From the NCBI GenBank assembly GCA_008360955.1, contig LUCM01009412.1, positions 1 to 64,000 on the forward strand: DNA of 64,000 nucleotides. Direction: 5' to 3'. Position 1 is the stretch's first letter; each line of letters opens with the position of its first letter. Of this stretch, positions 8,440 through 63,080 are shown one piece after another. This DNA comes from Fasciolopsis buskii. Taxonomy: Eukaryota > Platyhelminthes > Trematoda > Plagiorchiida > Fasciolidae. The notes below the pieces were generated by a model. It was not told the DNA's origin and did not search any database. It saw only the letters and a list, made by a program, of their open reading frames with translations. A program made the translations under genes and the position numbers.

Positions 8440-10174
8440 GTAATGCAGAAGTGCAGTGTTTTACCCATTTTAGCAAACAAACTTTCATTTAAGCAATACT
8501 CTATCCTACAAAAATGGTTACCAAATGCCAAAGCCTTATCCACAATTCGGAATTGGAGGCCGTCCATTGAAAGTTAATCAGCTTACGGAAGCGGAATTAG
8601 ATGAACTCGCTAATTTTCAACCAAGTCTCACGTATGGAAAAACTCGGCAGGCTCCTCCCTCTGAGTTCGTCCCTGCTCACGTGGCACTGGATAAAAAAGT
8701 CCTGAGGTTTTATGGATATTTCAAAGAAACAGTTAATGAATCGCCTCAAGAAAATTATAGAATTCGTCTTGTACAGATAATTTATTTTCTGGAAGATGAT
8801 AGCATGCTAATTATGGAACCACCGCAAAACAACAGTGGAATCCCACAAGGTAAGTTTTTCTGAAATCATGTTGGCCTTTAGCGTTTATCCAAATAAAGGT
8901 ATACTTGTCTATGCAGTGTTAAGCTACGGCATGGCGTAGTTTGGCGCGCAATACTGATCGACCTTTCAGCAGCCAACTGATAAACATCTGAGAATCGCCT
9001 GGCTAGCAACCAGACGTTTCCTAGAGCAGTCATTTAGTACGCCCAATAAGTTGTTGCAAAATTCAACCCAAGGGGCACCTAGAAACTTCTTATTTTATCT
9101 TTTAAAGAAAGCTACTAGAGTGTAAAGTGTAATAATGCACAATGAAATTTGTGTAACGAATAATTCCAAGATATTGATATATGAAACAAATCTTAGCCAG
9201 AAACCGTTTGTACCCTTTTCGCGGACTTATCCCTTCTACGGTGAAGAATTTAGTGATAAATGAATGGCCGCCGTACATCTACACAATAACCAAAAAATGT
9301 GTTCCGTATTGCATCTCCAAGTTTACTCAAATAAAACCTAAATGTTTACATGAAATAATTCACCATGTGATATCACCACTCAGCTCACCATAGAAAAACC
9401 ATGGAAGCACTGTACAGCTGTTTCATCCTTATTAGGAATCATCAGCAGTGCATATCCACCGCGCCCCAACTGGGACGCGAACCCGGGACGAACGATTGTG
9501 AGTCGAACGCCTTAGCCATTACGCTACCGGACAGGCTCTGAACGGTTTGTTGAACTTCACCACATGATGTTGCACCTATCCGTCACTGATTTGCACGGTT
9601 ACTGTCCGTTAGCTCACAGCGATCGACCCCTACTGATAGATGACTTCTGTGCAGGTAGCCTAGGTTCGACGAAGGCTTTGGGTATGACCTACAGAGCTTG
9701 ATTACTTGATACATTTTAGTAGTAGGAGATTGAACGTTTACATGAAATAATTCACCATGTGATATCATCACTCAACTCACCATAAAGAAACCATGGAAGC
9801 ACTGTACAGCTGTTTCATCCTTGTTAAGAATCATCAGCCTAAAGGTTCCGGGAAATGAGCGCGAAACGGACACTTTGCAGCACATCTGGGTACTTTTACG
9901 GGATATTTTTGAAAGGCCTGACAGAACGCAGTTAAACTTCTGGTAGAGTTTCTCCATGCTCGTGGGTCTAAATTTGAGTCATTTTCTCTGCATTTTAAAG
10001 CGTCTACTCAGCACAGTCTCAGGATATACACGGGGAAAACCACAAGCCATTATGACCAGTGACCAAGTAATATGAACCGTATTTTCGGCATATCTATCGT
10101 AGCTCGTCCGCCGCAAATTGCAATGCCCGCTAAATGACCGTAGAGAGGTAAAAAGTACATCAGAGTCAAATGCG

Positions 10175-22200: not shown

Positions 22201-25200
22201 TTGCATTTTTGCAAATTCTTTAATTGGCTAAGAACTACATCACCTATAATCGGCGAGGTGGTTCTCGCCAAGTGTTAAAACATGATAACAGTAGGAAGGA
22301 AGTTTACTTTCCACCGGTCAGTTTCTAACTATTGCACTGAAAAATAAGTCGATTCAAAGAACCGGGAGGAACACAATGAATATCGTGGCCTCTAAAAATT
22401 ACGCAACTAGCGGCGAGATTTCGCGTGTTGGTAACAGGAAAATTACATCAACAATCTACTGAATTGAATACTTCCTCCTCAGAAAGATATTTACAGTGAG
22501 CATTACACTAATTTCCTAGTGCATATATATCCTGTTCCAGCTTTGGTTCTCCTAATTTATTTAGCAGATTTATTTCTTGGAAGTCGTGACAGTTTATTCC
22601 ACAGCCAGTAGGTCCATTTATTGCCTCTCTCTTCTCAGTCTTAGTCAACATAGTAGACAGAACTCTAGAAATCAGGTAGAAAAACAACCAAATGGAGGTT
22701 ACATGTTTTTTTACGTAGATAAGTGCACAAGTTCAGTTCAACGGAGTTTCGTTTCAGTAACCAAAAGGGAACCATAAGTGCGATGATATACAGTATTAGG
22801 CGCATTTGCTGCTGGCCTGGATTGTCCATCATGCACAGGAGCACCAGTACCAAAACACTTCCGTATCACACCGTTAGCAGTTAGCTGTGGCACGTGTTCA
22901 TTCAACGCGTTTCACTCTTGCTATTTTATACTTAACCATATATAAATGGGTTGCAAAGCTAATAGATATTAGAGCCTCCGTTCGCCCTAAAAACATTTTG
23001 CCAACTAGTAAATTTTGCAGGATATTGACCTTCTTCCCAAATAAAATCACTTCACTTCAAGGGATAGTAAAATATCGATCAATGAATTAAAGACAGACTG
23101 TGATGCTGGTGTTTAACAAACACCCGACTTACGGCACAGTCCCGGTGGAAAGGTCTTTCACATTGGAACCCCGTGTGTATGCCGACAAACCTAAGTCGAC
23201 GAAAAATGGCACCTCAGCGGTAGAAGTAATGTGCCTCCAGACCTGTTTTTCCTTTATCATCTAAGAACCCGTTAGCATTTGCGTAGCTCTGGGCCTCTTT
23301 CACATAGGGAGAACGGTGTCAAACGTCGAGGCACGAAAGGTTCCATGAACCGTTAGGTAATGTTTATTGGTCCGTCAGAATTGCAATAAACTTATTTATA
23401 CAAGAATCAAAGACACCAGCCAGCGTTTCTAAGTGAGTTACTTCTAGTCCAATCAAACAACGAAACTAGAATAAAGCCAAATCGCTGTTTCCCAAAGTTG
23501 CTCAACGGATATCGGCTTACGGACAAGCATAAAGGGCAATAACCTAAATAATGTTCTTGACTGATCCGTTGAAACTCAATTGAAAACATATTTAATGGTA
23601 ATGAAAAACGCAGAGATTCCAATAACGTTTACCATTCACAAGTTCGGAACTCCAATACGAAAGCGAATTCAGGATGCAGACCGTATATGGCGGGATCGCC
23701 ATAGCTAGTGGCCACGGCAAGGCTTTACAGAAGAAACGTTGCAGTTATATAGATGTTCTCCAAGCTGATTCAGCCCATTGCAGATACCGGGATGAAAACA
23801 CGGCAATTGAGGGAAATGATCCATGAATTTGACCAATCGAGTATCCACAACGATAAGAGACATGTTGTGCGCTAAGCAGAACATATTCAAGGCGCAATTT
23901 AGCTGGCACTCAGAATCAGCGCCTCCCGTAATTATCCCAGCAAACGCCCGCCAACTGACTCAAAGATCCTCAGGGAAATCCGACCCATAGAAAATCGTAA
24001 GGCCCCGGGCTCCGACAGGTTTACTCCAACTCTGTTTACAGATGAAAGAATAGAACTGGTGAGAGAACTTCAATTGTTGTTCTCAAAGATCTGGTACTCC
24101 GAGATAGTCACCTCCTCAAGGGAGGAGTCGATGTTTCTTCCCATCTTCAAAATCGTCTGCCCGGTGACTGCACTAACCTAGAGAGTATTAGCCTACTCAC
24201 AAAACAATCGAGGCTGCTTTTGTCCGTCATTCTCCGCGGGATACACCACACGCATGGTGAGCAAACTTGCGAGGAACAGGTTGGGTTTCGCGTTGGTCGT
24301 GTCTGCGTCGATCAAATGTTTACCCCACGACAGATGTTAGAACGCGTTTCAATTTACAAAGGCCAACGGTCATCGTGTTCTTGCACGTTCGCACAGCCTT
24401 TGAATCTTTTGATAGGTCTGTATTATGGTATTGTTTGTTAAGGAATGGAGTACCCGGAAATTGCATGTCGGTCCTCAAAGAGTTGTGCCGTCATTTATCA
24501 GGTCTGGTTATAGATTATGATAAGCTTTCGCCATCTTTCGTCATCTCCAATGGAGTACGACAAGACTGTCTTATATAAGCATTTCTTTTCAATTATGCCG
24601 TAGATATTGTTCTACAGGACTCTTTATCTGATCTTTCGGACGGTGGAGTTGGAAGAATTCGGGGAACGGAGTTCTAATTTAGAGTACGCCGATGATATTG
24701 TCTTGCTGAGTGACAATGCACGGACAGTTAAACGTGCGTTAGACCGCTTGAAATTTGAGATATCTACGTAGGGTACGTGGGTTGCACGTTTAGAATGCAA
24801 GGTGTTTCTTCAAAACTAGCAGGAGTCTGTGTTTGTGCTCACCCTTTGTGGTGATCGATTGGAATTAGTCAATAGCTTCAAGTAACTCGGGAGCATGATC
24901 ACGCCGGGTGGATATGCTGCGCAGGAGGTCTCATCACGAATTGCGAATGCCAGTACAGCTTTTTCGAACCTGCGACATTTGTGACGCCGCGACGGCATCT
25001 AGCTTTCCCTCAGATGAAGGGTGTACAATGGCGAATTTCGAAGTGTTCTGCTTTGCGGTTGCGAGACCTGGCCTATCCGCGTTGAGGATTCCTGGCGGCC
25101 TTCTGTGTTTGACCGCCACTGTCTCCGACTGATTGCTCGTGACTGGTGGGAACGTCGTTTGAGCAATGACGAGGTGCGTCGTCATTTTTAGTGTTCAGAC

Positions 25201-31200: not shown

Positions 31201-34200
31201 TGTCTATACACGATGATAAAGAAATATATAAATAAACATGTACAAAAATTCTTCATGGAATCAGAAAAAGCACGGAGCCGAAGAAACAATATGAATGGAA
31301 TTTCTCAGAAGGTAAAAAAAAACAAGTGGAAAATCGATAAATCACAAAAAACCAATTGCTCTCTGTTTCCGCCTTACACATTCTGTAATTTTTGGTTGTA
31401 TTCGGATTATGTCTAACAGGGTGAGTTCTACGGACAGGCCAAATAGCATTCGCACCACTGACTTCGGTTCTGAGCCATATCTTTCAGCGTCTCCAACCAA
31501 CAATCATTCTCATCTTGGGCCCTAAACAGAAACGTGGGAAACACCAACCGAGGACAAGGCCGAAGCTAACTGCTTCATACCTCTGGGCCAAGTCATAGCC
31601 TGACCGCCGCTTCGCTTATTCCAATCCTGCTCAGCACGTGCTAAAAGAACGCGACAACACAGACAATGGACAGGCATTCGCAATGCGTGTCAAGCCACCG
31701 AAGCCGACATGGGGCGAATATCTCAGCCACAGGACGACAGTCTGAACACTAAAAATGACGACGCACCTCGTCATTGCTCAAACGACGTTCCCACCAGTCA
31801 CGAGCAATCAGTCGGAGACAGTGGCGGTCAAACACAGAAGGCCGCCAGGAATCCTCAACGCGGATAGGCCAGGTCTCGCAACCGCAAAGCAGAACACTTC
31901 GAAATTCGCCATTGTACACCCTTCATCTGAGGGAAAGCTAGATGCCGTCGCGGCGTCACAAATGTCGCAGGTTCGAAAAAGCTGTACTGGCATTCGCAAT
32001 TCGTGATGAGACCTCCTGCGCAGCATATCCACCCGGCGTGATCATGCTCCCGAGTTACTTGAAGCTATTGACTAATTCCAATCGATCACCACAAAGGGTG
32101 AGCACAAACACAGACTCCTGCTAGTTTTGAAGAAACACCTTGCATTCTAAACGTGCAACCCACGTACCCTACGTAGATATCTCAAATTTCAAGCGGTCTA
32201 ACGCACGTTTAACTGTCCGTGCATTGTCACTCAGCAAGACAATATCATCGGCGTACTCTAAATTAGAACTCCGTTCCCCGAATTCTTCCAACTCCACCGT
32301 CCGAAAGATCAGATAAAGAGTCCTGTAGAACAATATCTACGGCATAATTGAAAAGAAATGCTTATATAAGACAGTCTTGTCGTACTCCATTGGAGATGAC
32401 GAAAGATGGCGAAAGCTTATCATAATCTATAACCAGACCTGATAAATGACGGCACAACTCTTTGAGGACCGACATGCAATTTCCGGGTACTCCATTCCTT
32501 AACAAACAATACCATAATACAGACCTATCAAAAAATTCAAAGGCTGTGCGAACGTGCAAGAACACGATGACCGTTGGCCTTTGTAAATTGAAACGCGTTC
32601 TAACATCTGTCGTGGGGTAAACATTTGATCGACGCAGACACGACCAACGCGAAACCCAACCTGTTCCTCGCAAGTTTGCTCACCATGCGTGTGGTGTATC
32701 CCGCGGAGAATGACGGACAAAAGCAGCCTCGATTGTTTTGTGAGTAGGCTAATGCTCTCTAGGTTAGTGCAGTCACCGGGCAGACGATTTTGAAGATGGG
32801 AAGAAACATCGACTCCTCCCTTGAGGAGGTGACTATCTCGGAGTACCAGATCTTTGAGAACAACAATTGAAGTTCTCTCACCAGTTCTATTCTTTCATCT
32901 GTAAACAGAGTTGGAGTAAACCTGTCGGAGCCCGGGGCCTTACGATTTTCTATGGGTCGGATTTCCCTGAGGATCTTTGAGTCAGTTGGCGGGCGTTTGC
33001 TGGGATAATTACGGGAGGCGCTGATTCTGAGTGCCAGCTAAATTTGCTGAGCTCGACGCAGAATACGTCGCTGAATCTTTGGATAGTTGAACCATCGGCT
33101 GCGCAGATACTGTGAGTTGGTAACTCTTCGTAATTTTGTTATCATTCGAATTCCTAAAACTGGCTGGCGCGAAGTCCTCCTACATTAGCTTAACACGATT
33201 GGTCGGTTCCTTGCGACTTGTTTTCCTTTCGTCTTGAGGTTTCACTTGGAACGTTTGTCGATACCGGTGCCAGTTCCTACGAACGGAATTTCGGTAACGA
33301 CAAGTGGCTTGGAATCTTCTATATTTCACTCGACATTAGATTGTGAGAACTCATGTAGTTTGAACAAGGTTTGATTAATAAAATTCCATGTTCAACGACG
33401 AACTGATGGTTTGGCAGCGTGTGAACAAGACTGACTGTTCTGTTCTTTAGCATCTGAGTTTAAACATGTTAATGATAGGATAGCGACTTATGGTCCATTG
33501 GGATTTTTAAGAACTTATGTTGCTGGAAGTTGATTGATTTTCGTTTTTACGTTGATAGGAAGGGACTGTGTTTCCTATCTGGCACATTTTTACGACCTTT
33601 CATTCCTAAGGAAATGTCTGATCAATAGTGAATAAAGTAGGATGATGTGTTTGATGATGAAAAGATAAGCAGTAGAAAAACGATAATGACGATTAATTTG
33701 AGTTTAACAATATGAATGCACGCTGCCAGAAAAGCAAACTGAAATACAACTGGATGAACTGGTTTCATAAGCTCGTCATTGTTCAAGGAATCATTTTCAC
33801 ATTATGGAATGACCGTCGGGAGCTAAATACCGAGACGTTCAAACCTGAAGATTTTGCTTGAATCTTTTCAACACTGGTCAATTTTCACGACTGGAAGCTC
33901 TATTCTACTGCGACCCCTCACCAGAAAACCGTTTGCATTGTTATTTGCACAATAATAAAGAAGGTAGAGACAAAATGCTGATCTCATCACTGCGGATATA
34001 TACAGGTTGCTAGAATCTCATTTATATCACCGTCGAAGTTGAGCGCGTAGCGAATGTCTGAGTTTGAGGAGACCAGCATGGTATGTTCTGGTTCAATTAG
34101 CTACTTCTTTCGAATGTCTACTTCATTGGTGCTGATTGATTCCATATGTCAGGTAAAAAGAAGATTATTTACGGCTGCACACATCTTTCACCACTAACGG

Positions 34201-37200: not shown

Positions 37201-40200
37201 CCAGCCAAACTGACTCAAAGACCTCCAGGAAATCCGACCCATAGAAAATCGTAAGGCCCCGGGCTCCGACAGGTTTACTCCAACTCTGTTTACAGATGAA
37301 AGAATAGAACTGGTGAGAGAACTTCAGTTGTTGTTCTCAAAGATCTGGTACTCCGAGATAGTCACCTCCTCAAGGGAGGAGTCGATGTTTCTTCCCATCT
37401 TCAAAATCGTCTGCCCGGTGACTGCACTAACCTAGAGAGTATTAGCCTACTCACAAAACAATCGAGGCTGCTTTTGTCCGTCATTCTCCGCGGGATACAC
37501 CACACGCATGGTGAGCAAACTTGCGAGGAACAGGTTGGGTTTCGCGTTGGTCGTGTCTGCGTCGATCAAATGTTTACCCCACGACAGATGTTAGAACGCG
37601 TTTCAATTTACAAAGGCCAACGGTCATCGTGTTCTTGCACGTTCGCACAGCCTTTGAATCTTTTGATAGGTCTGTATTATGGTATTGTTTGTTAAGGAAT
37701 GGAGTACCCGGAAATTGCATGTCGGTCCTCAAAGAGTTGTGCCGTCATTTATCAGGTCTGGTTATAGATTATGATAAGCTTTCGCCATCTTTCGTCATCT
37801 CCAATGGAGTACGACAAGACTGTCTTATATAAGCATTTCTTTTCAATTATGCCGTAGATATTGTTCTACAGGACTCTTTATCTGATCTTTCGGACGGTGG
37901 AGTTGGAAGAATTCGGGGAACGGAGTTCTAATTTAGAGTACGCCGATGATATTGTCTTGCTGAGTGACAATGCACGGACAGTTAAACGTGCGTTAGACCG
38001 CTTGAAATTTGAGATATCTACGTAGGGTACGTGGGTTGCACGTTTAGAATGCAAGGTGTTTCTTCAAAACTAGCAGGAGTCTGTGTTTGTGCTCACCCTT
38101 TGTGGTGATCGATTGGAATTAGTCAATAGCTTCAAGTAACTCGGGAGCATGATCACGCCGGGTGGATATGCTGCGCAGGAGGTCTCATCACGAATTGCGA
38201 ATGCCAGTACAGCTTTTTCGAACCTGCGACATTTGTGACGCCGCGACGGCATCTAGCTTTCCCTCAGATGAAGGGTGTACAATGGCGAATTTCGAAGTGT
38301 TCTGCTTTGCGGTTGCGAGACCTGGCCTATCCGCGTTGAGGATTCCTGGCGGCCTTCTGTGTTTGACCGCCACTGTCTCCGACTGATTGCTCGTGACTGG
38401 TGGGAACGTCGTTTGAGCAATGACGAGGTGCGTCGTCATTTTTAGTGTTCAGACTGTCGTCCTGTGGCTGAGATATTCGCCCCATGTCGGCTTCGGTGGC
38501 TTGACACGCATTGCGAATGCCTGTCCATTGTCTGTGTTGTCGCGTTCTTTTAGCACGTGCTGAGCAGGATTGGAATAAGCGAAGCGGCGGTCAGGCTATG
38601 ACTTGGCCCAGAGGTATGAAGCAGTTAGCTTCGGCCTTGTCCTCGGTTGGTGTTTCCCACGTTTCTGTTTAGGGCCCAAGATGAGAATGATTGTTGGTTG
38701 GAGACGCTGAAAGATATGGCTCAGAACCGAAGTCAGTGGTGCGAATGCTATTTGGCCTGTCCGTTGATCTCATCCAGTTATACCTATTGTAAGTACAATC
38801 GAAAACTCAGAATATTTTACAGGAAATGGCACAGCTATTTTCTATTTTGATTCCTTTGTTTTTTTTCTCGTTTTTCGCCCTTAATGAAACTTCATTTGCA
38901 TATTATTTCTTCCGCACTTTTCTGTTCTTATTCAGTGTAAAGTGTCTATAATTATTTATATCTTTCTAGCTTGTTATTTCCTATTTCGGACTTTATATCT
39001 ACTCCTAATTTTCCAGCATTTACTGGAATTCTATTTTGGTATATCCTTAGTTGCGATCTCTGATCTCTGCTGCTTTAGAAAATGCGATTTTAAGCATTGG
39101 CTTTCTTAAGTTTAATTTTATTCCCAACGGATCATCATCATTTTGTGAGTTAAGTTCCATTGCAAATCACTGGGTTGATAAAATGTCATGAACTAAACAT
39201 TTGTATTAGAATTTAATTTATCAAAACCTTTTGAAAGAAGTTGATGACAAAGAGTTCCAGAGAACCTCACTCCTGATGTTCACTGGTTTATGGGATTGTT
39301 CTGCTCAGTGAGGCCAAGTGTTTTTCGATCGCATGTATCCTGATGTATTCGGTGAGTAGCGAATCGGGTCCATCTGGTAAGTATCCAGGCCCGTTTGGCC
39401 ATTTGTGACGCACGTGGTCAAGATACATGAAGATGATTGACAGTGACTGAATGCTATGAGTGTCATTTAGTCCATCGAAGGAAACGTAGAAAGTAAATGT
39501 CAATAAAACCCGGTGTATTTAAATAAAATATTACATGCTTGCACAAGTAAACCTGTCCATTCATCAGCCCATACATTTTTGGAGGTAGGCTTACTTCTCG
39601 CAAACAGCTCAATCTTGTCTATCAGATTCCAGTTAGTTGTATTCTCTTTTTTAAACATTGATGTGTTGCGGCTTTCAGGTTTCTACAATCATTATACGAG
39701 AATGATATCATCTGTGTGATGGAAGAAAGTCTGTATCAGTGCTAGAGTTCGGTATCCAAAGCTTGGATGTTGCGTTTCCATCTCCGAATTACTGCTTTTT
39801 TGTCATCTGATATTTAAGCATGATAGATTATCACTGATGCTACACGGCTACTATTCTGTAGCGCACTGCTTTTGTGCTTGGAAGAAAGGCAACAGTCGAC
39901 AGCCAGTGCCATGAAAAAATGGTATAAAAACAGGGCTGCCCAGTTTATATCAGTTGGCCTCTTATGTCTGCGGGTGAAGAAGACGGGTAATTAGAGAAAC
40001 TGTAAACTGTGCTGAGTGCAACGCAGTGGTGCGATAAAATACTCAGAACAAAAGGTTATAATGCGGTTTTTTCTCACATTATCTGCTGTTTTATCGTTAC
40101 CTTCTCAATGACTGTTTTGTATTTTTTTTTTATTTCGCCCAACATTTGTATCTCAGCATAGACGGGAGTGGACTCCAGGCTACCTACTTGCCCTAAACGT

Positions 40201-43200
40201 CTCTCAAAATCCCCCAAAATGACCGTGCGTCTAAAATTACAGGTGATAAGTAACTCTTACTTACTATCTCCTAGTGATCAGGGTGTTCGCATTAAATTTT
40301 GAAGATGAAGTTGAACGCACAACGTTTACCACCGAGTTGATTGGTCTTCGGTGGTAATTGTGAGGTAGATGGCTGAACTTTGGCTCCAAACCAACTACGG
40401 GCGACGTACGAGGCATACTGCCGTATGCTCACCCACATCCTTGTCGGAGGGTGTACTGGGCACCCTGAATCTCCGGCGCCATTCTAAAGGCATTTAAGCT
40501 GAGCCATCTGTCACCAGTTCCCAGAGGGTCACGAGCCCCTCAAATGGCCCCCTATTGCTTTCTAGGTTAGACTCTTTGGCAAAGAGTTGAAGTAGGGTCC
40601 CTTGTTTCGGTTTAGCCAACCGGATAGTATGAAAACCACTGACGAAATAGGCCTCCCGATGAGAAACCGAAGATGGTTGCGGAGAATGAAAAATTTGTCG
40701 TACGTGTGCAGACTTTTATACAACGTCTTTTTGTTTTCGTTTTCCCCATCCTTTTAGCCCCCCGGAAAATTCCGCTAACACGACGTGTGCACCGATTTTT
40801 GCTATATATATATATATACATATATATATAAACGTTTTCTAATAAGTAATCGGAGTAAAGACATTCTTCATTCCCTTCGGTACATTTCAAAGATTCCCAT
40901 GTTTTCGTTTGTTTTATTCTTAAAAGGACTTTCTGGAAAGTGAAGGCGTTGTTATCAACGATCCGGAACCGGAGCCAGAAGACCCGTACTTGGTAGAACG
41001 GGCGCGACGTGAAGCATTGACAACCAGCAAGACTCCAAGTTCTTTTGACAAACGAAAACAACAATTTGAACTAGATCGGAAAGTACTTCGTTTCTATGCC
41101 GTGTGGGATGATCGAGCTGAACCGATGGGTGAATGTCGTAAATTTTCAATACAGGTGAGAATGATTTTGCAGAGAAAAAGATTTTAGAACTTTACGATTA
41201 CTTTACCATTGCTAATTCATCACAACGCCCGCTAGTTTACACGTTTGTTGGTGCGATTCCAAATAAACTGGAATCTGATGGGTTACGAATAGTACAAATT
41301 TGTAGTACGTAGTTAAAGCTTTTCTGAACGTGGTCAATCATTTTCAAAAAAAAATAAGCATACAAGGTCATACGTTATGGAACACTCCGGAAGAGCGATC
41401 GCCTCTTCCAAACAAACACTTCCTTGATCCCGAAAAAGCTTTATCGTAAAAACCAACCCCATGGGCAACAACGCCATCTCCAACTAAACAGATCTGGTTG
41501 GTTCCGGTTGTAATCGCACCAATGGAGAGTATTCTGTGATGAGTCTGTTATTTTTTAAAAAAGCGTGCCACCGATCAGATTACCTATTGGTGATGCCTTT
41601 TGTTCATAGCAATAGGCATATCATCTTCAATGACTATAATCTACCTAAAAATTCAACCGCCTTCTAACATGTTATTGATTTTGAGTGCTCATATTCTATC
41701 TAAACCATTGTAACATACAAAACATAAGTCAGCCAACATATACGCATCTAGTAATACCAGTATGAGTTTATGTATTTGTTAGATTTACTTCTGGCATAAT
41801 GTACATTTTCCAATAATACCTATTTTGTTTCTCTTTGGTCTGTCATAGTACTACCTGGCCGATGATACTATGGAAGTACGCGAGATTCACACAGTCAACG
41901 ATGGGAGAGATCCCTTTCCACTACTGATTAGAAGAAGTCGCATTCCAAAAAATTTGGATGATATACCACGCACGTTTCCTACTATTACCATGGAAATAAC
42001 TGGTGCGTCTAATTGTTAAAAACCGACGGTCAGTATTATGATATGATTTGAAAAGGATACAAATGAAAAGATTACAAAAGGTTGCAATCATAAGGTTACG
42101 AAACAAAATTCAACGGGTTTAGCAAAAGCAAACGTAAGTAATTTAAAAGACCAAAGACCAGAAAACGTTGGCTTACGTAGGAAAACTAGTTAAAATGTAC
42201 GCTTCATCATTATTTTCAAAATGTAGTTTCATGGAACCATGAGAAAATGTAAAAACAGAGTGTGAGGGTGCATACCGAAATTGTTGCCTGAAACGGTGTG
42301 TAACTGCTATTTTTGTCCACAGTTTGTCCCCTCCAGCACTCCGAATGGTAAGTGAAAATTATTGGTTTTCATGAATTAATTCACCACTTGATACCATACC
42401 ATACATCATCACTTTAAAAAGGATATGGAAAATATAGCGTTTATTATGGAAATTGCCAATTGAATCGTTAGAACTTTGCACTCTGAACCAGACGCTAGTT
42501 GATTAGCTTGGGGTAATCTAGCTTAAAATTTAGCGGGTCTCTCTGATTAGGTCACTCCAATTTTCATATCCCATTGGTGACATTGTTCGTGCATCTTGTC
42601 AATGGCTATGGAATGCGAGTGATAACTAATCATCGACGGCGCTCGTTGATTTTTACAATCTGTATAACGCACGCAGAGCCACCAGTGTTTGATCTTCAGT
42701 TTCGAGTCACCAATTTCCAAATACATCTGATCACTTCACAGCTGTGTATGTCAGTTTCTCAGATTTATCTTGAAGTGTTGCACCATATGTGATTTCAATA
42801 CGCATTCCTTCAGCATTGAATTCCTCTCACTGCAGCGACAATTGACTCATCAGTCTACTGAACGGTAAAATATTATCTTCTAAAATAGGCGTCCCATTTG
42901 GTTATGTTCACAATAGAATTGAAGGGAATGCACTTGAAAATATTCTCAACTAGTTCAACTACTGCAAACAGCGCAGCTGGCATGAATTACACCGGTCGTA
43001 CTGGTTTCAGAGGCCATCGCGTTGATTATTATCAAAAGTAAATGGGAAGATGCCGGTCATATCAGCTCATATGATTAACCTCAAGTGACGACAGGCCTGC
43101 ACGTTGAACGGTGTACGGCCTCACTTCTTTTGGTATTACCTGACGCATAACTGAGATGAATAATAGCTAGAGACCTCTACAGACCCTTAGTTTAATTACA

Positions 43201-61200: not shown

Positions 61201-63080
61201 TGAAATTGAGAGTGAAAATTGTTGTCTAATCTTGTGGCCAATATTATCATTGCTGTTATTCAAGTTGTGTCGAATTTTGTCATCCTTATTTGATCGCGTC
61301 ATTTAGGATAGCAAAACCTGGGAGTACTGTAGACAAACCAATCTACTACGGTCCTAATGATTTTTCACTTGGATCGAAAATTGAAGTATTTGGCAATCGC
61401 TTCATAATCACCGACGCTGACGCGTTTGTGATCAAATTCATGGAAACTAATCGCGACCAATTTTCGGATGAACTGATTCAGTGCTGGAGAGCGCGAATCA
61501 CTGAGAGAGAGGCGGAAGAGCGAGCCAGACAGGCGGCCAAAGAAGCCAGGACCAAAGGTGGTCCCGTTGCCTTGCGTCGGCAGTAAGTATGATCTTTAGT
61601 CGAAATTTTACCATTGATAAACTACTTCATGGTCAGCTTTATATTTTCTAATTAAAAAATCCGCTAACCAATAGCAGAAAACGTTTTGAATTCAATTTAC
61701 CAGGGAAAATAGCCTTTGGTTGTCTCACATTCAAAGGGGACCTCGGATGGTGAAAAAATTATGCGACCAAAATGGTCGAATTCAGATACTAGGAACTCAT
61801 ACTAAAATTTCAAATCCATTTAAACAAAATAAACCTGCTTTTGAATTACTCTTCGTTTCACGGAATGCAGTATCACATTGGCCTTACACTTACCTACGAC
61901 GATTCTCTGTAGAGAACAAACTGGATCACCGTAAACCGTCACTGATTGGCACGGTTACTGTCCGTTAGCTCAGAGCGATCGACCCCTACTGATAAATGAC
62001 TTCTCTGCAGGTAGCCTAAGTACGACGAAGGCTTTGGATATGACCTACAGAGCTTGATTACTTGATACATTTTAGTGACGGATAGGTGCAACATCATGTG
62101 GTGAAGTTCAACAAACCGTTCAGAGCCTGCCCGGTAGCGTAATGGCTAAGGCGTTCCACTCAGAATCCAATCGTTCGTCCCGGGTTCGCGTCCCAGTTCG
62201 GGAGCAGTGGATATGCACTGCTGATGATTCCTAATAAGGATGAAACAGCTGTACAGTGCTTCCATGGTTTCTCTATGGTGAGTTGAGCGATGATATCACA
62301 TGGTGAATTATTTCATGAAAACATTCAATCTCCTACTGCTAGAATAGTGTTACATTTTTCAGATACCTTCATTTTATTTTTACGATCACAAAGCACATTC
62401 TATTCTACTTGACTGACTGTCCTTGTGTTTCTATCGCTGAAGCACAAACCCCAGACAATTCAGTCAGCTTTAGACTCGGGAAACACCTGACTAGAATTTC
62501 GCTCTTATTAGAGCTCACCGGTGAGACGCATTCACTGTCACATCCACAGTTTCAACCCGGACCTTCCACCTAGGGGCGTAAACATAGCGCCACTAAGCTT
62601 CCATGTGAGCTGATCGGAATTAACTAATTGTTTGTTCAGGTGACGCCCAAAATGACAATCGGCAGTGTCCAACAGTTTAGAAAATAAACATAGCAAATTT
62701 CCCGTTAGCTCCATTCAGGCTTCCCGAATGCAAGGCTGACTGGACGACCTGAGGTGTGTGCACGAAAGGTTCATTCTGAAGGGGAATCAATCAGACAAAT
62801 TGGTATCAATCCCACACGTTATTCACGAATAACCGAAATATGTATGAAATATTCGCAGTTTAGCAATGCTCAAATGTTCTTCTTCAGCGATGGAGATACG
62901 AAAGATCTGATTGAAGAATTCCGGACACAGCTGAAAAAGTTAGCCATTACTGACAAGCTGCGCAAGGACGAAATGTTCCTCCGATATAACAGAGATCGCC
63001 TAGGCTTTATCGATATCGAGTGTTTGAAAGATATTTGCGTGAAACTTCAATTGCCTCCTGACGAAGAAGTCCTGAACGCG
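8371..63080 (+). CDS. EFHC1: EFHC1 orthologue, 10 exons, 3'-incomplete (three DM10 domains plus EF-hand)
   Basis: Joining 8371-8439, 8474-8849, 34890-35026, 40927-41154, 41849-42002, 46934-47121, 52668-52808, 55973-56106, 61307-61582 and 62888-63080 gives 1896 nt, 632 codons, with every junction GT..AG and in phase. The product aligns along its whole length with vertebrate EFHC1 (about 640 aa): N-terminal GLPFLPG motif, GIGG, DM10 domains at about 94-196, 240-360 and 417-521, a charged helix rich in E, A and R (about 538-560) and an EF-hand-like loop at 602-613. EFHC1/Rib72 proteins are known microtubule inner proteins of axonemal doublets. In a fluke this predicts expression in flame cells, sperm and ciliated sensory cells. 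The N-terminus and linker segments resemble EFHC1 rather than EFHC2. The ATG at 8371 has an in-frame TGA 12 nt upstream. About 30 C-terminal codons, expected by comparison with human EFHC1, are not found before the window ends. Confidence 0.95.
8440..8473 (+). other. 34-nt spliceosomal intron (intron 1)
   Basis: GTAATG at the 5' end and CCATTTTAG at the 3' end enclose only 34 nt between two phase-0 exons. Removing it joins DPT to [12 protein letters not shown], which aligns without gap to human EFHC1 (ST-KTAFHRSQTLSY). Retention shifts the frame and gives a 68-codon product ending at 8577. Very short introns near the 5' ends of genes are known in schistosomes. Confidence 0.88.
8474..8849 (+). 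CDS. EFHC1: EFHC1 exon 2 (residues 24-149, start of DM10-1)
   Basis: It encodes [49 protein letters not shown] and [11 protein letters not shown], all close to human EFHC1. The first half of DM10-1 begins at about residue 94. The exon begins after TTTTAG and ends at CAAG|GTAAGT in phase 1. The frame is open back only to a TAG at 8471-8473, which is the acceptor itself. Confidence 0.95.
8850..9343 (+). other. Start of intron 2, no recognised element
   Basis: Non-coding stretch between the exon 2 donor and the SINE cluster. I see no conserved frame or repeat with a second copy in the window. Confidence 0.5.
9402..9458 (-). ncRNA. Hammerhead ribozyme, type I, copy A
   Basis: Minus strand order: stem I 5' strand TGGA-TAT-GCACTG; CTGATGA core; stem II TCCT/AGGA with AATA loop; GAAA; stem III ACAG/CTGT with no loop; cleavage triplet GTA; stem I 3' strand CAGTGC-T-TCCA. 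Both helices of stem I pair perfectly around a 3/1-nt internal loop. Predicted cleavage lies between positions 9413 and 9412. The expected G-C closing pair of stem II next to the core is U-U here. The very short palindromic stem III suggests activity as a dimer, as reported for short-stem-III hammerheads of this class. Confidence 0.85.
9484..9540 (-). ncRNA. tRNA-like head of SINE copy A
   Basis: The minus strand carries GCCTGTCCGG, A box TAGCGTAATGGCTAAGGCG and B box GGTTCGCGTCCC. It is embedded in the SINE and is not a stand-alone tRNA gene. An acceptor stem is not convincingly formed. Confidence 0.75.
9587..9719 (+). repeat. 133-bp SINE-associated module X, copy 1
   Basis: From TGATTTGCACGG to ACATTTTAG, about 93% identical by eye to 61943-62075. 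Both copies read the same way on the plus strand, although the SINEs next to them are on opposite strands. CCGTCAC precedes the left end. It contains TAGCTCACAGCG and, about 50 nt later, GGTTCGAC, vaguely like tRNA A and B boxes, but copy 2 has lost the second, so I do not call it a promoter. Confidence 0.8.
9720..9838 (-). mobile_element. SINE 3' fragment, copy A' (5' truncated inside the hammerhead)
   Basis: The minus strand begins at GCTGATGATTC, so the tRNA head and the stem I 5' strand are missing. The rest of the ribozyme core and the 3' tail (GTGAATTATTTCATG, then CAATCTCCTACT) remain. It lies in the same orientation as copy A with module X between them, so the locus resembles a partial head-to-tail dimer. 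Confidence 0.8.
9794..9838 (-). ncRNA. Truncated hammerhead ribozyme, copy A'
   Basis: CTGATGA, stem II (TCTT/AGGA with one G-U pair), GAAA, palindromic stem III, GTA and CAGTGC are all present. The GCACTG partner strand of stem I is replaced by unrelated sequence. It should be unable to cleave on its own. Confidence 0.75.
10177..10208. repeat. (AT)16 microsatellite
   Basis: Uninterrupted AT dinucleotide run in intron 2. Confidence 0.95.
10209..23639. other. Intron 2 interior, 13.4 kb without recognised gene
   Basis: AT-rich sequence with short open frames only, none longer than about 150 codons, none showing a familiar motif or splice-consistent continuation of EFHC1. TA-rich low-complexity patches occur at about 18220-18260, 18975-18990 and 19310-19350. 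No copy of the SINE or LINE families described elsewhere in the window was seen here. Confidence 0.5.
23640..25900 (+). mobile_element. Degenerate RTE-like non-LTR retrotransposon, copy 1 (linker, RT and 3' end)
   Basis: From about 23640 a diverged linker reads like the segment between endonuclease and RT of RTE-type LINEs (FSKLIQ...TG, then [15 protein letters not shown]). The homogenised core starts at about 23896. Recognisable RT pieces in different frames: [14 protein letters not shown] (about 23975), [10 protein letters not shown] (about 24267), motif A with His instead of Asp (VFLHVRTAF, about 24376), SNGVRQDC instead of RQGC (about 24545), [12 protein letters not shown] (about 24682), and the C-terminal [15 protein letters not shown] near 25440-25490. 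Frameshifts and stops make it non-functional. The near-identical core ends at about 25653, where similarity to copy 2 drops abruptly. The RTE/SR2-like assignment is from motif style, not phylogeny. Confidence 0.88.
25901..28080. other. Intron 2, no recognised element
   Basis: AT-rich sequence with a TA-rich stretch at about 27315-27360. Open frames are short and unremarkable. Confidence 0.45.
28081..28296. repeat. Fold-back repeat with ~100-bp arms
   Basis: The left arm (28081-28180) and right arm (28195-28296) are inverted copies with about 80% identity by eye, separated by a 14-nt spacer. Shared blocks include CTTGCCTTGAGAAA, ACCCA.GGTAGTC and GCATTACATCT. The inner part of the left arm is itself a short palindrome (GACTACCATGGGTAGTC). 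It could be a MITE-like fold-back, or two solo copies of an element end in opposite orientation. Confidence 0.85.
28297..31290. other. Intron 2, no recognised element
   Basis: No conserved frame found. A stretch at about 29999-30045 has weak tRNA-like box matches but is too short between boxes to call. Confidence 0.45.
31291..33520 (-). mobile_element. Degenerate RTE-like LINE, copy 2 (inverted)
   Basis: Reverse complement of copies 1 and 3. From 31291 to about 33020 it matches copy 1 almost base for base, including the 3' tail. From about 31434 to 33510 it matches copy 3. It carries the same motif A Asp-to-His change, the same RQDC substitution and the same stop after QDCLI, with private point changes (for example ESFDRS to EFFDRS). 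No endonuclease is recognisable upstream (beyond 33520). Confidence 0.9.
33521..34889. other. End of intron 2, no recognised element
   Basis: Non-coding sequence leading to the acceptor GCATTCCAG at 34881-34889. Upstream of 33520 similarity to copy 3 persists weakly for a few tens of bases and then fades. Confidence 0.5.
34890..35026 (+). CDS. EFHC1: EFHC1 exon 3 (residues 149-194, end of DM10-1)
   Basis: It encodes [26 protein letters not shown] and VNCDKFTH, matching the second half of EFHC1 DM10-1. Phase 1 in, phase 0 out (CAT|GTGAGT). It is flanked by LINE copy 2 (minus) on the left and copy 3 (plus) on the right. Confidence 0.95.
35280..36210 (+). mobile_element. RTE-like LINE copy 3, endonuclease remnant
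   Basis: Frame 1 from about 35371 reads [35 protein letters not shown], the start of an apurinic-type LINE endonuclease with the catalytic Glu in QET. After a frameshift, 35808-36040 reads AGDMNARVG and ends with [21 protein letters not shown], matching the GD.N and IDHI motifs. At least one frameshift and one stop inactivate it. The left limit is approximate. Confidence 0.82.
36211..36642. other. Segment between endonuclease and RT parts of LINE copy 3
   Basis: No recognisable LINE motif. It may be diverged LINE linker or an insertion. The part next to 36643 retains weak similarity to the flank of copy 2. Confidence 0.4.
36643..38870 (+). mobile_element. RTE-like LINE copy 3, linker, RT and diverged tail
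   Basis: 36643-37150 matches the 5' part of copy 2 in inverted orientation. 37240-38762 is nearly identical to copies 1 and 2, with the same dead motif A, RQDC and frameshifts. After CCTGTCCGT at about 38762 the tail is only about 65-70% similar by eye to the tails of copies 1 and 2, although clearly the same family end (shared T-run, CATATT.TTTCTTC). Small indels cluster between about 36880 and 37230. Confidence 0.9.
38871..40140. other. Intron 3, no recognised element
   Basis: AT-rich intronic sequence. No homologous exon or known repeat seen. Confidence 0.45.
40141..40620. repeat. GC-richer block of probable repeat origin in intron 3
   Basis: The composition is visibly richer in G and C than the flanks, with words such as CTCCGGCGCCATT and AGAGGGTCACGAGCCCC, and no open frame. 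It resembles the untranslated part of a retroelement in style, but there is no second copy in the window to prove it. Confidence 0.3.
40803..40830. repeat. (TA)n low-complexity tract
   Basis: TA run interrupted by one CA, about 100 nt before the exon 4 acceptor. Confidence 0.9.
40927..41154 (+). CDS. EFHC1: EFHC1 exon 4 (residues 195-270, start of DM10-2)
   Basis: It encodes DFLESEG, a Pro/Glu-rich linker EPEPEDPY, then [15 protein letters not shown] and GECRKFSIQ, matching human DKQVLRFYAIWDD and GECRTYIIH. Boundaries AAAAG|GAC and CAG|GTGAGA, phase 0 on both sides. Confidence 0.96.
41155..41848 (+). other. EFHC1 intron 4 (694 nt)
   Basis: GTGAGA...TGTCATAG. AT-rich with no recognised element. 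Confidence 0.8.
41849..42002 (+). CDS. EFHC1: EFHC1 exon 5 (residues 271-322, DM10-2)
   Basis: It encodes [32 protein letters not shown], nearly the same as human [33 protein letters not shown]. Ends phase 1 at AACTG|GTGCGT. Confidence 0.96.
42003..46933. other. EFHC1 intron 5 (4.9 kb)
   Basis: GTGCGT...TTTCCACAG. Contains a (GA)8 run at 44217-44232. Open frames of up to 100 codons (for example 44287-44589) have no recognised motif. Confidence 0.55.
44217..44232. repeat. (GA)8 microsatellite
   Basis: Perfect GA dinucleotide run in intron 5. Confidence 0.9.
46934..47121 (+). CDS. EFHC1: EFHC1 exon 6 (residues 322-384, end of DM10-2)
   Basis: It encodes [34 protein letters not shown] and [10 protein letters not shown], matching human [27 protein letters not shown] and KEKFGITD. 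Ends AAG|GTGGGC, phase 0. Confidence 0.96.
47122..52667. other. EFHC1 intron 6 (5.5 kb)
   Basis: GTGGGC...CTTTACAG. No recognised repeat family or coding segment. Open frames are short. Confidence 0.55.
52668..52808 (+). CDS. EFHC1: EFHC1 exon 7 (residues 385-431, linker and start of DM10-3)
   Basis: It encodes [28 protein letters not shown] and MLRYEARL, aligned with human ELPPYNGFGLVEDS and VLRYLAVL. Phase 0 at both ends (TTTACAG|GAG, TTG|GTGAGT). Confidence 0.95.
52809..54339. other. EFHC1 intron 7, 5' part
   Basis: Non-coding. A region near 53140-53420 is somewhat GC-richer but has no identifiable element. Confidence 0.5.
54340..54412 (-). ncRNA. tRNA-derived SINE head, second family
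   Basis: The minus strand shows A box TAGCAAGTTGATCGGTTAGA and B box GGGTTCGGATCTTCC 47 nt apart, the spacing of a tRNA. The sequence continues downstream on the minus strand toward 54296 without a clear end. It differs from the hammerhead SINE. It is more likely a SINE head than a working tRNA, because no acceptor stem pairs. Confidence 0.65.
54413..55972. other. EFHC1 intron 7, 3' part
   Basis: AT-rich. Ends at the acceptor CCCTATAG. No recognised element. Confidence 0.5.
55973..56106 (+). CDS. EFHC1: EFHC1 exon 8 (residues 432-476, DM10-3)
   Basis: It encodes [31 protein letters not shown] and GGFFLRRAR, matching human [30 protein letters not shown] and GGKYLGRT. Ends phase 2 at GCTCG|GTAAGC. 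Confidence 0.95.
56107..56846. other. EFHC1 intron 8, 5' part
   Basis: No recognised element. Confidence 0.5.
56847..57512 (+). other. Unassigned 221-codon open frame in intron 8
   Basis: Open from after a TAA at 56844 to the stop at 57510-57512, but without an ATG in its first third, so not a normal gene start. The predicted peptide has an acidic segment ([15 protein letters not shown]) and no motif I recognise. It may be a chance frame or a relic of a mobile-element protein. Confidence 0.2.
57513..61306. other. EFHC1 intron 8, 3' part
   Basis: A GC-richer, repeat-like stretch at about 57530-58460 with no open frame of interest, an (AT)n tract at 60126-60147, and otherwise AT-rich sequence. 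No element could be named. Confidence 0.45.
61307..61582 (+). CDS. EFHC1: EFHC1 exon 9 (residues 476-568, end of DM10-3 and charged helix)
   Basis: It encodes [45 protein letters not shown], matching human [45 protein letters not shown]. A helix rich in R, E and A follows ([16 protein letters not shown]). Ends phase 2 at GGCA|GTAAGT; reading through gives an immediate stop, as expected for a true donor. Confidence 0.96.
61583..61942. other. EFHC1 intron 9, 5' part
   Basis: Intronic sequence up to the module X / SINE insertion. An 82-codon frame (61720-61968) shows no motif. Confidence 0.5.
61943..62075 (+). repeat. 133-bp SINE-associated module X, copy 2
   Basis: Matches 9587-9719. Here it is bounded on the left by CCGTCAC and on the right by GTGACGG, a short inverted repeat, and the SINE starts with the right-hand copy. 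Confidence 0.8.
62128..62200 (+). ncRNA. tRNA-like head of SINE copy B
   Basis: A box and B box matches as in copy A, with a 5-nt insertion near ATCCA in the anticodon-arm region. Part of the SINE, not a separate tRNA gene. Confidence 0.72.
62208..62264 (+). ncRNA. Hammerhead ribozyme, type I, copy B
   Basis: TGGA-TAT-GCACTG, CTGATGA, TCCT-AATA-AGGA, GAAA, ACAGCTGT, GTA, CAGTGC-T-TCCA: all core nucleotides and both stem I helices are intact. Predicted cleavage is between 62253 and 62254. The motif is base-for-base the same as copy A, including the U-U position closing stem II. Confidence 0.87.
62535..62612 (-). ncRNA. tRNA-derived SINE head, probable third family
   Basis: The minus strand has an A-box-like AGCTTAGTGGCG and, 42 nt later, a B-box-like GGGTTGAAACT; between them lies TTTACGCCCCTAGGTGGAAGGTC. 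The boxes are slightly degenerate (A in place of C in the B box core), so this is a relic. Confidence 0.5.
62888..63080 (+). CDS. EFHC1: EFHC1 exon 10 (residues 568-632, EF-hand)
   Basis: It encodes [17 protein letters not shown], then [35 protein letters not shown], matching human [37 protein letters not shown]. The Ca-binding loop is degenerate: position 1 is Asn and position 12 is Cys instead of Glu. Acceptor CTTCTTCAG|C, donor GCG|GTGAGT, phase 0 out. This fits a further, final exon to the right of the window. Confidence 0.94.

Follow-up and report, generated by a model that had tools for sequence, protein, structure and literature searches.

A tRNA-headed hammerhead retroelement of a fasciolid fluke, with insertion footprints that point to a Penelope-type mechanism

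How does a short non-coding repeat that carries a hammerhead ribozyme spread through an animal genome, and what kind of enzyme inserts it? The question is raised by a 64,000-nucleotide stretch of the fluke Fasciolopsis buskii (contig LUCM01009412.1, positions 1 to 64,000; hereafter the window), which holds two copies, A and B, of one such element. With a probability of about 0.7, we read it as a non-autonomous retroelement of the animal retrozyme or Sm-alpha kind that is inserted in the Penelope manner and whose 392-nt unit begins with a tRNA-like head resembling an RNA polymerase III (pol III) promoter, followed by a minimal hammerhead of type I and by a tail.

The 392-nt units are joined head to tail, and the 392-bp period can be seen in copy A. 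Unit numbering (u1 to u392) begins at ACTAAAATG, and the unit and its copies in the window are laid out as follows, cDNA denoting complementary DNA.

u1-141: S segment
u195: A box
about u237: B box
u263-319: ribozyme
u308/309: cleavage position
u331-392: tail
61936..62076, minus strand: inverted cDNA of copy B, running from u141 to u1, 95% identical to 9580-9720, where the arrangement is opposite
62074..62345, plus strand: sense cDNA of copy B, running from u134 to u8 via u392, with head, ribozyme and tail (BLAST to the copy A unit, 93%)
9341..9838, minus strand: copy A, a sense run of 498 bp or 1.27 units with two ribozyme cores 392 bp apart (sequence comparison)
9393..9461, minus strand: complete hammerhead of copy A (Rfam Hammerhead_HH9, 24.9 bits)
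9813..9838, minus strand: upstream ribozyme core of copy A, the third in the window, its 5′ stem I missing at the truncation point (sequence)

An earlier note on this DNA had bounded the element of copy B at 62076..62340. That interval does lie within the element, but it cuts the 392-bp unit, and 61936-62076 is the first 141 bases of the same element in inverted orientation. In this layout, copy B resembles the product of simple twin priming and amounts to roughly one unit. The flanking CCGTCACT...AGTGACGG had made the S segment a candidate inverted-repeat DNA transposon; this was rejected because two cDNAs overlap by just these 8 bp and the inversion points differ in other copies.

The hammerhead of copy B can be read directly from the sequence, and its parts, all on the plus strand, are listed below by direct reading unless stated otherwise.

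62208..62264: hammerhead ribozyme, from outer stem I to outer stem I (direct reading, Rfam, folding)
62208-62211: outer 5′ strand of stem I, TGGA
62215-62220: inner 5′ strand of stem I, GCACTG
62221-62227: core CTGATGA
62228-62241: stem and loop II, three pairs and a U.U
62242-62245: core GAAA
62245..62252: palindrome ACAGCTGT, stem III of a predicted double hammerhead (two-strand minimum-energy fold)
62253: A17
62253..62254: predicted cleavage site GTA/C (motif position)
62254-62259: inner 3′ strand of stem I, CAGTGC
62261-62264: outer 3′ strand of stem I, TCCA

The core CUGAUGA/GAAA, an NUH cleavage site and an open stem I are those of a type I hammerhead, while stem III is either two pairs with a tetraloop or the 8-nt palindrome. 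The complete motif claimed by the earlier note, with its two-part stem I, CTGATGA, GAAA and GTA/C, is therefore present as described in that direct reading, and the cleavage position it placed at 62253/62254 agrees with the motif. Covariance models respond weakly: no match in the Rfam scan of the window reaches its gathering threshold, and the test that the note had proposed yields a Hammerhead_HH9 match of 25.1 bits at 62205-62273 (E = 0.00064 for the 601 bases searched, 0.068 for the window), below the gathering value of 52. Three other loci were searched in the same way. Two of them, L052 and L044, gave a Hammerhead_1 match of 26.7 bits (gathering 34) in four units each, together with an antisense tRNA-like Plastid-ycf2 match of 27.3 bits (gathering 65.7); the third, L058, returned neither a hammerhead nor a tRNA match. 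A chance origin of the motif is excluded by its abundance: across the 703,196,239 bases (6,974 contigs) of the digenean genome that holds the window, the exact 32-base ribozyme core, with two free positions, occurs 1,880 times and its reversed control not once, which also confirms the high copy number for which a genome-wide search had been suggested. An exact 26-base word of the tail occurs 2,844 times, again with no occurrence of the reversed control.

Calling the ribozyme intact holds for its sequence and less well for its predicted folding. As a single strand, its minimum-energy structure (-17.3) buries C, U and G of the core in pairs with the palindrome at a probability near 1, whereas the hammerhead fold scores -10.9; two strands together (-40.5) adopt a double-hammerhead pairing with both cores free. 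These energy models ignore tertiary contacts and proteins, and a double-hammerhead dimer of the element RNA is a prediction only. Dimeric ribozymes are needed for higher cleavage rates in amphibian retrozymes (PMC7229834).

The pol III-like head placed ahead of the hammerhead by the earlier note is likewise found, with both boxes on the plus strand.

62135..62145, plus strand: A box TAGCGTAATGG (direct reading; a 23-mer containing it is identical in copy A)
62183..62193, plus strand: B box GGTTCGCGTCC (direct reading)

The B box GGTTCGCGTCC has a single mismatch to the consensus. The full-length Rfam tRNA model (positions 1-71) scores 23.7 bits in four units each of L052 and L044 (gathering 29); ARAGORN reports no tRNA in the window, and in relaxed mode it assigns conflicting types to the head, Val-CAC- or Leu-like, with no close resemblance to a tRNA. 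Judging from the two boxes, the element is probably transcribed by pol III.

How the element enters DNA was examined in three sets of loci: 36 regions that surround the top matches of a head-ribozyme query (set 1), 26 obtained likewise with a tail query (set 2), and 20 taken in contig order from the core pattern, for which an intact core was required (set 3). Sets 1 and 2 were thus chosen by similarity, and two of the three sets were found with ribozyme-containing queries. The fetched regions and the two window copies make 84 sequences, which gave 92 records, a stretch being recorded when its matches covered at least 100 bp and the best of them reached 86% identity; L072, L076 and L086 of set 3 yielded none. 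Six records were dropped, five with duplicate flanks and L020 (contig C1213) with a palindromic flank. The palindrome of L020 is long, takes in both the element and its flank and borders on Ns; it looks like an assembly artefact. The 86 insertions retained comprise 38 that are sense only, 47 with an inverted and a sense part, and one other.

Target-site duplications of 9-17 bp (median 12 bp) flank 35 of the 74 insertions with both flanks readable, at a cut-off score of at least 9 and with a search that maximises overlap; mismatched flank pairs, used as a control, pass in 24 of 5,398 cases (0.44%). By class, duplications are found in 28/42 inverted-plus-sense insertions, 7/29 sense-only insertions and 0/3 others. 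Their scarcity in the sense-only class looks as if a second priming were the regular finishing route.

The outer ends of the insertions are concentrated in one zone, u365-392/u1-22, which covers 50 of the 392 positions: of the right ends, 76 of 82 lie there, and of the inverted outer ends, 30 of 43. The zone also holds 3/47 inner inverted ends and 4/32 left ends of sense-only insertions. The outer ends form two clusters, taken here as start sites of reverse transcription, with medians at u372 and u403; these lie 31 nt apart (21-43 nt in individual insertions), about 64 and 95 nt past the cleavage position. On copy B they correspond to the following intervals.

62305..62329, plus strand: putative start site 1, u360-384, with its median u372 at about 62317 (clustered outer insertion ends)
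62330..62345, plus strand: first part of the tail of about 31 nt that leads toward start site 2 (u385-392/u1-25); copy B stops inside it at u8 (insertion ends)

The two sites are used in a complementary manner. Both ends could be read in 42 inverted insertions, where the site combinations were (1,2) in 16, (2,1) in 10, (2,2) in one and (1,1) in none, and the other 15 have one end outside both sites; one end at each site is therefore the rule in 26 of 27 informative pairs (Fisher p = 1.3e-6), or 15/16, 4/4 and 7/7 in sets 1, 2 and 3. The site boundaries were fixed from ends already listed, but when the published 31-bp tail was already known, so that this test was not blind; the footprints themselves had been measured before any comparison with published Penelope features. 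The inverted and sense halves meet with an overlap of 0-3 nt in 30/47 insertions, an overlap of 4-15 nt in 8/47 and a gap of 1-43 nt in 9/47. Both halves contain the tail (u335-360) in 31 of 47 inverted insertions, a sign that two copies were made of it; ordinary twin priming on a single linear RNA would not give this.

This combination recalls Penelope-like elements, which share with the element a hammerhead just upstream of two internal reverse-transcription start sites and an optional 30-40-nt tail, as well as an inverted 5′ part, partial tandems, short duplications and AT-rich targets (PMC11167929, PMC3846280). The same 26 of 27 pairs display what Penelope mobilisation would leave, an inverted 5′ part and an extra 30-40-nt tail at just one of the ends. 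The Penelope enzyme of the anole cuts and extends both strands from two internal starts whose interval equals a 30-40-bp tail, the hammerhead lying upstream with its cut at +26 and the main start at +111-118; the enzyme prefers AT-rich DNA and inserts equally when the hammerhead is mutant (PMC11167929). Penelope inserts carry two direct and one inverted terminal repeat, an optional 31-bp tail at one inverted repeat and duplications of 8-10 bp, which some inserts lack (PMC3846280). The element differs in that it has a pol III-like head and no reverse transcriptase or GIY-YIG coding sequence; Penelope-like elements encode a protein, for which 392 bp is too short, and the element is thus not itself one of them.

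The template is a further part of the question. As in retrozymes with their units of 150-400 bp, units follow one another head to tail with one hammerhead each; the runs reach 1.6 kb, and 20 of the 86 insertions have a sense run longer than one unit. In all, 21 single-strand runs measure 414 to 1,628 bp, the longest extending beyond the fetched stretch, and one of them, the 702-bp run of L044, is an inverted half. Such runs imply a template longer than the unit, a circular template or later growth of the array. Rare variants, in the records made before set 3 was added (as for the divergence tests), are common to tandem units of one insertion in 158/548 cases (9.2 expected) and to its inverted and sense halves in 28/308 (6.2 expected), as against 164/7,906 (212 expected) for pairs of different loci; each pair enters these figures once in either direction, and arrays contribute strongly to them. 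The halves share rare variants at 14 sites, compared with a mean of 2.8 and a maximum of 9 in 40 draws of random partners, with 7 of 34 insertions contributing and the other 27 sharing none. Plain divergence within insertions was dropped as a test of the halves, because these (mean 0.054) are no closer than different loci (0.058), which leaves the rare variants alone to separate them; tandem units do diverge less (median 0.022 versus 0.054 for different loci). A circle and a homogeneous multimer explain the shared rare variants equally well.

A possible course of events can be assembled from these observations. The element would be transcribed, probably by pol III, and transcripts of at least two units would be cleaved by their hammerheads, which would act chiefly in the form of a double hammerhead paired through the ACAGCUGU palindrome, with the unit RNA perhaps ligated into circles. 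A Penelope-type reverse transcriptase may then bind the stretch 3′ of the ribozyme and cut an A/T-rich target on both strands with a stagger of about 12 bp. Each target end would prime a cDNA of its own, with start site 1 used for one and site 2 for the other, before the two cDNAs join, typically with the 0-3 nt overlap described above (30/47). Runs longer than a unit would arise when the enzyme circles a circular template or follows a multimer.

Several observations weigh against this reading. Nearly a third of the inverted outer ends (13/43), including that of copy B, lie outside the start zone, and 13/47 inner sense ends fall within it. This excess is modest (p 0.0065), but it means that outer ends do not have the zone to themselves; these inner ends could reflect cDNAs that often stopped where they had begun, after one turn. 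The cleavage site (u305-313) shows no pile-up of ends, as 2 of 251 are found there (0/82 right, 1/43 inverted outer, 1/47, 0/47 and 0/32 in the remaining classes), so that ribozyme action is traceless in the DNA and the pile-up was rejected as a proof of it. The duplications overlap both element ends by about three bases on average, in a search that maximises overlap, and the published Penelope start site, unlike these overlapping duplications, is not homologous to the cut DNA (PMC11167929). One array of at least four units, L058 (contig C773), has GAAA changed to CAAA in four units, from which it follows that array formation is possible even where the ribozyme is not expected to cut on its own. 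Units of L058 also share an altered outer stem I. At minimum energy, a 542-nt linear RNA with two hammerheads hides both cores and forms no double hammerhead, and a 392-nt circle keeps the hidden-core fold. Common variants number one in the 57 ribozyme columns and 19 in the 335 outside, which does not demonstrate constraint; given so few common variants and the ribozyme-containing queries, core conservation was rejected as proof of ribozyme function.

Nor did a search for the GIY-YIG family, in which 150 of 212 candidates were scored, reveal a Penelope element sharing the tail. It returned two decayed matches, L087 and L088, probably Penelope relics, with a sequence that looks Penelope-like. 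There is no hammerhead near them and their similarity to the unit is unconvincing (best E 0.57); L088 had a single, unnamed relative in a protein search, and both were dropped as partners.

Mobilisation by a long interspersed element (LINE) with an APE-type nuclease would offer another source of the footprints, the inverted copies arising by L1-like twin priming and the end clusters where A-runs anneal a T-ended primer. Many right ends do coincide with an AAA or AAAA in the tail, the 12-bp duplications often begin with A-runs, copy B resembles classical twin priming, and the 15-bp duplications of an anemone retrozyme have been termed LINE-like (PMC4918200). L1-type twin-primed insertions also share the 5′ inversion, the short junction overlap and a similar duplication length with the element. 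In L1 twin priming, the second cDNA normally starts inside the body; here, in contrast, inverted outer ends lie in the tail zone (30/43) and the tail is found twice (31/47). Plain twin priming on one RNA predicts neither this double copying nor one start site per end in 26/27 informative pairs, and we regard a LINE as an unlikely mobiliser.

Closer to an even chance, though short of it, is the proposal that tandem copies are transcribed into linear multimers and that these, not circles, serve as templates, with the ribozyme irrelevant to insertion. It accords with the near absence of ends at the cleavage site, with the altered core in the four units of L058 and with the in vitro insertion by Penelope, which is ribozyme-independent and uses mainly unprocessed RNA (PMC11167929). 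It fits less well with rare variants mostly common to the units of some young arrays (6/6 in the two complete units of L052; 10-12 of 13-16 in six pairs of L058), which a homogeneous source array could nevertheless explain, or with the 13/47 inner sense ends in the start zone, as expected after one completed turn. Expansion of the arrays as satellite DNA by unequal exchange after insertion appears improbable, still more so than a LINE: L058 does extend beyond the fetched stretch and the units of L060 are up to 21% apart, but multi-unit runs occur within single insertions flanked by duplications, such as L062, with a 3.7-unit sense run of 1,433 bp, and L044, where 702 bp are inverted and 723 bp are sense.

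Among known systems, animal retrozymes without long terminal repeats resemble the element in their type I hammerhead, unit of about 170-400 nt, tandem arrangement, high copy number and lack of coding capacity (PMC7229834), and differ in that retrozymes of plants and animals are seemingly promoterless (PMC7761336), whereas the element has a tRNA-like head with A and B boxes. Sm-alpha and Sj-alpha of schistosomes are likewise fluke elements with a tRNA-related head, a hammerhead and thousands of copies (PMC2770079), and full-tRNA schistosome repeats have already been counted as putative retrozymes (PMC4918200). The head of the element resembles no tRNA closely, while that of Sm-alpha is reported to derive from Gln-TTG. 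The mobiliser of animal retrozymes is described as unsettled: LINEs or Penelope elements have been proposed as helpers, Penelope being a strong candidate, with no discriminating footprint in these papers (PMC7229834, PMC7761336). Such a footprint, of the Penelope type, is documented in the present element and left open for animal retrozymes there. Among the matches listed in a literature search, titles and abstract openings describe no Penelope tail in a retrozyme or short interspersed element (SINE). This suggests that the footprint evidence for a Penelope link is new, the link itself having been proposed earlier without it; the footprint points to Penelope-type insertion and supplies numbers that can be tested in other genomes.

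A more speculative extension, which we hold tentatively, treats the element as a SINE with a Penelope-like autonomous partner, a pol III-headed RNA that carries a Penelope-type cassette of a hammerhead and two reverse-transcription start sites. Its palindromic hammerhead would pair two RNAs, and a dimer of the Penelope reverse transcriptase would copy both simultaneously from the two cut target ends. If true, RNA pairing would account for both the one-tail inverted insertions and the persistence of hammerheads in Penelope elements and retrozymes. The footprints themselves bear on the role of the hammerhead, whose dimer form may serve insertion more than its cleavage does.

Two further features of the window touch on the element.

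9337..9342, minus strand: candidate duplication TTTAGG beside copy A, with its other copy at 9838-9843 (by eye; weak, flank score 8, below the cut-off of 9)
42350..42430, minus strand: decayed stretch resembling the tail of the element (69% over 81 bp)

The latter was considered as a LINE end and dropped, as no gene was recognised by eye among the nearby open reading frames of at least 60 amino acids. Searches of plasmid, viral and bacterial/archaeal collections gave no match. The window also contains a fluke EFHC1 gene, whose exons are dispersed across 8474-63308, and both copies of the element thus lie between the exons seen. Of the ten best of 931 protein matches to these exons, the first is P0001 (97% identical over 39% of the query), which is itself 67-81% identical to the nine fluke proteins compared, and the second to tenth come from named flukes. 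As every named protein among these ten is from a fluke, the fluke origin that the earlier note had assumed is upheld. Three nearly identical open frames of 131 codons, at 24046-24441, 32499-32894 and 37300-37695, one of them reversed, appear to represent another repeat family.

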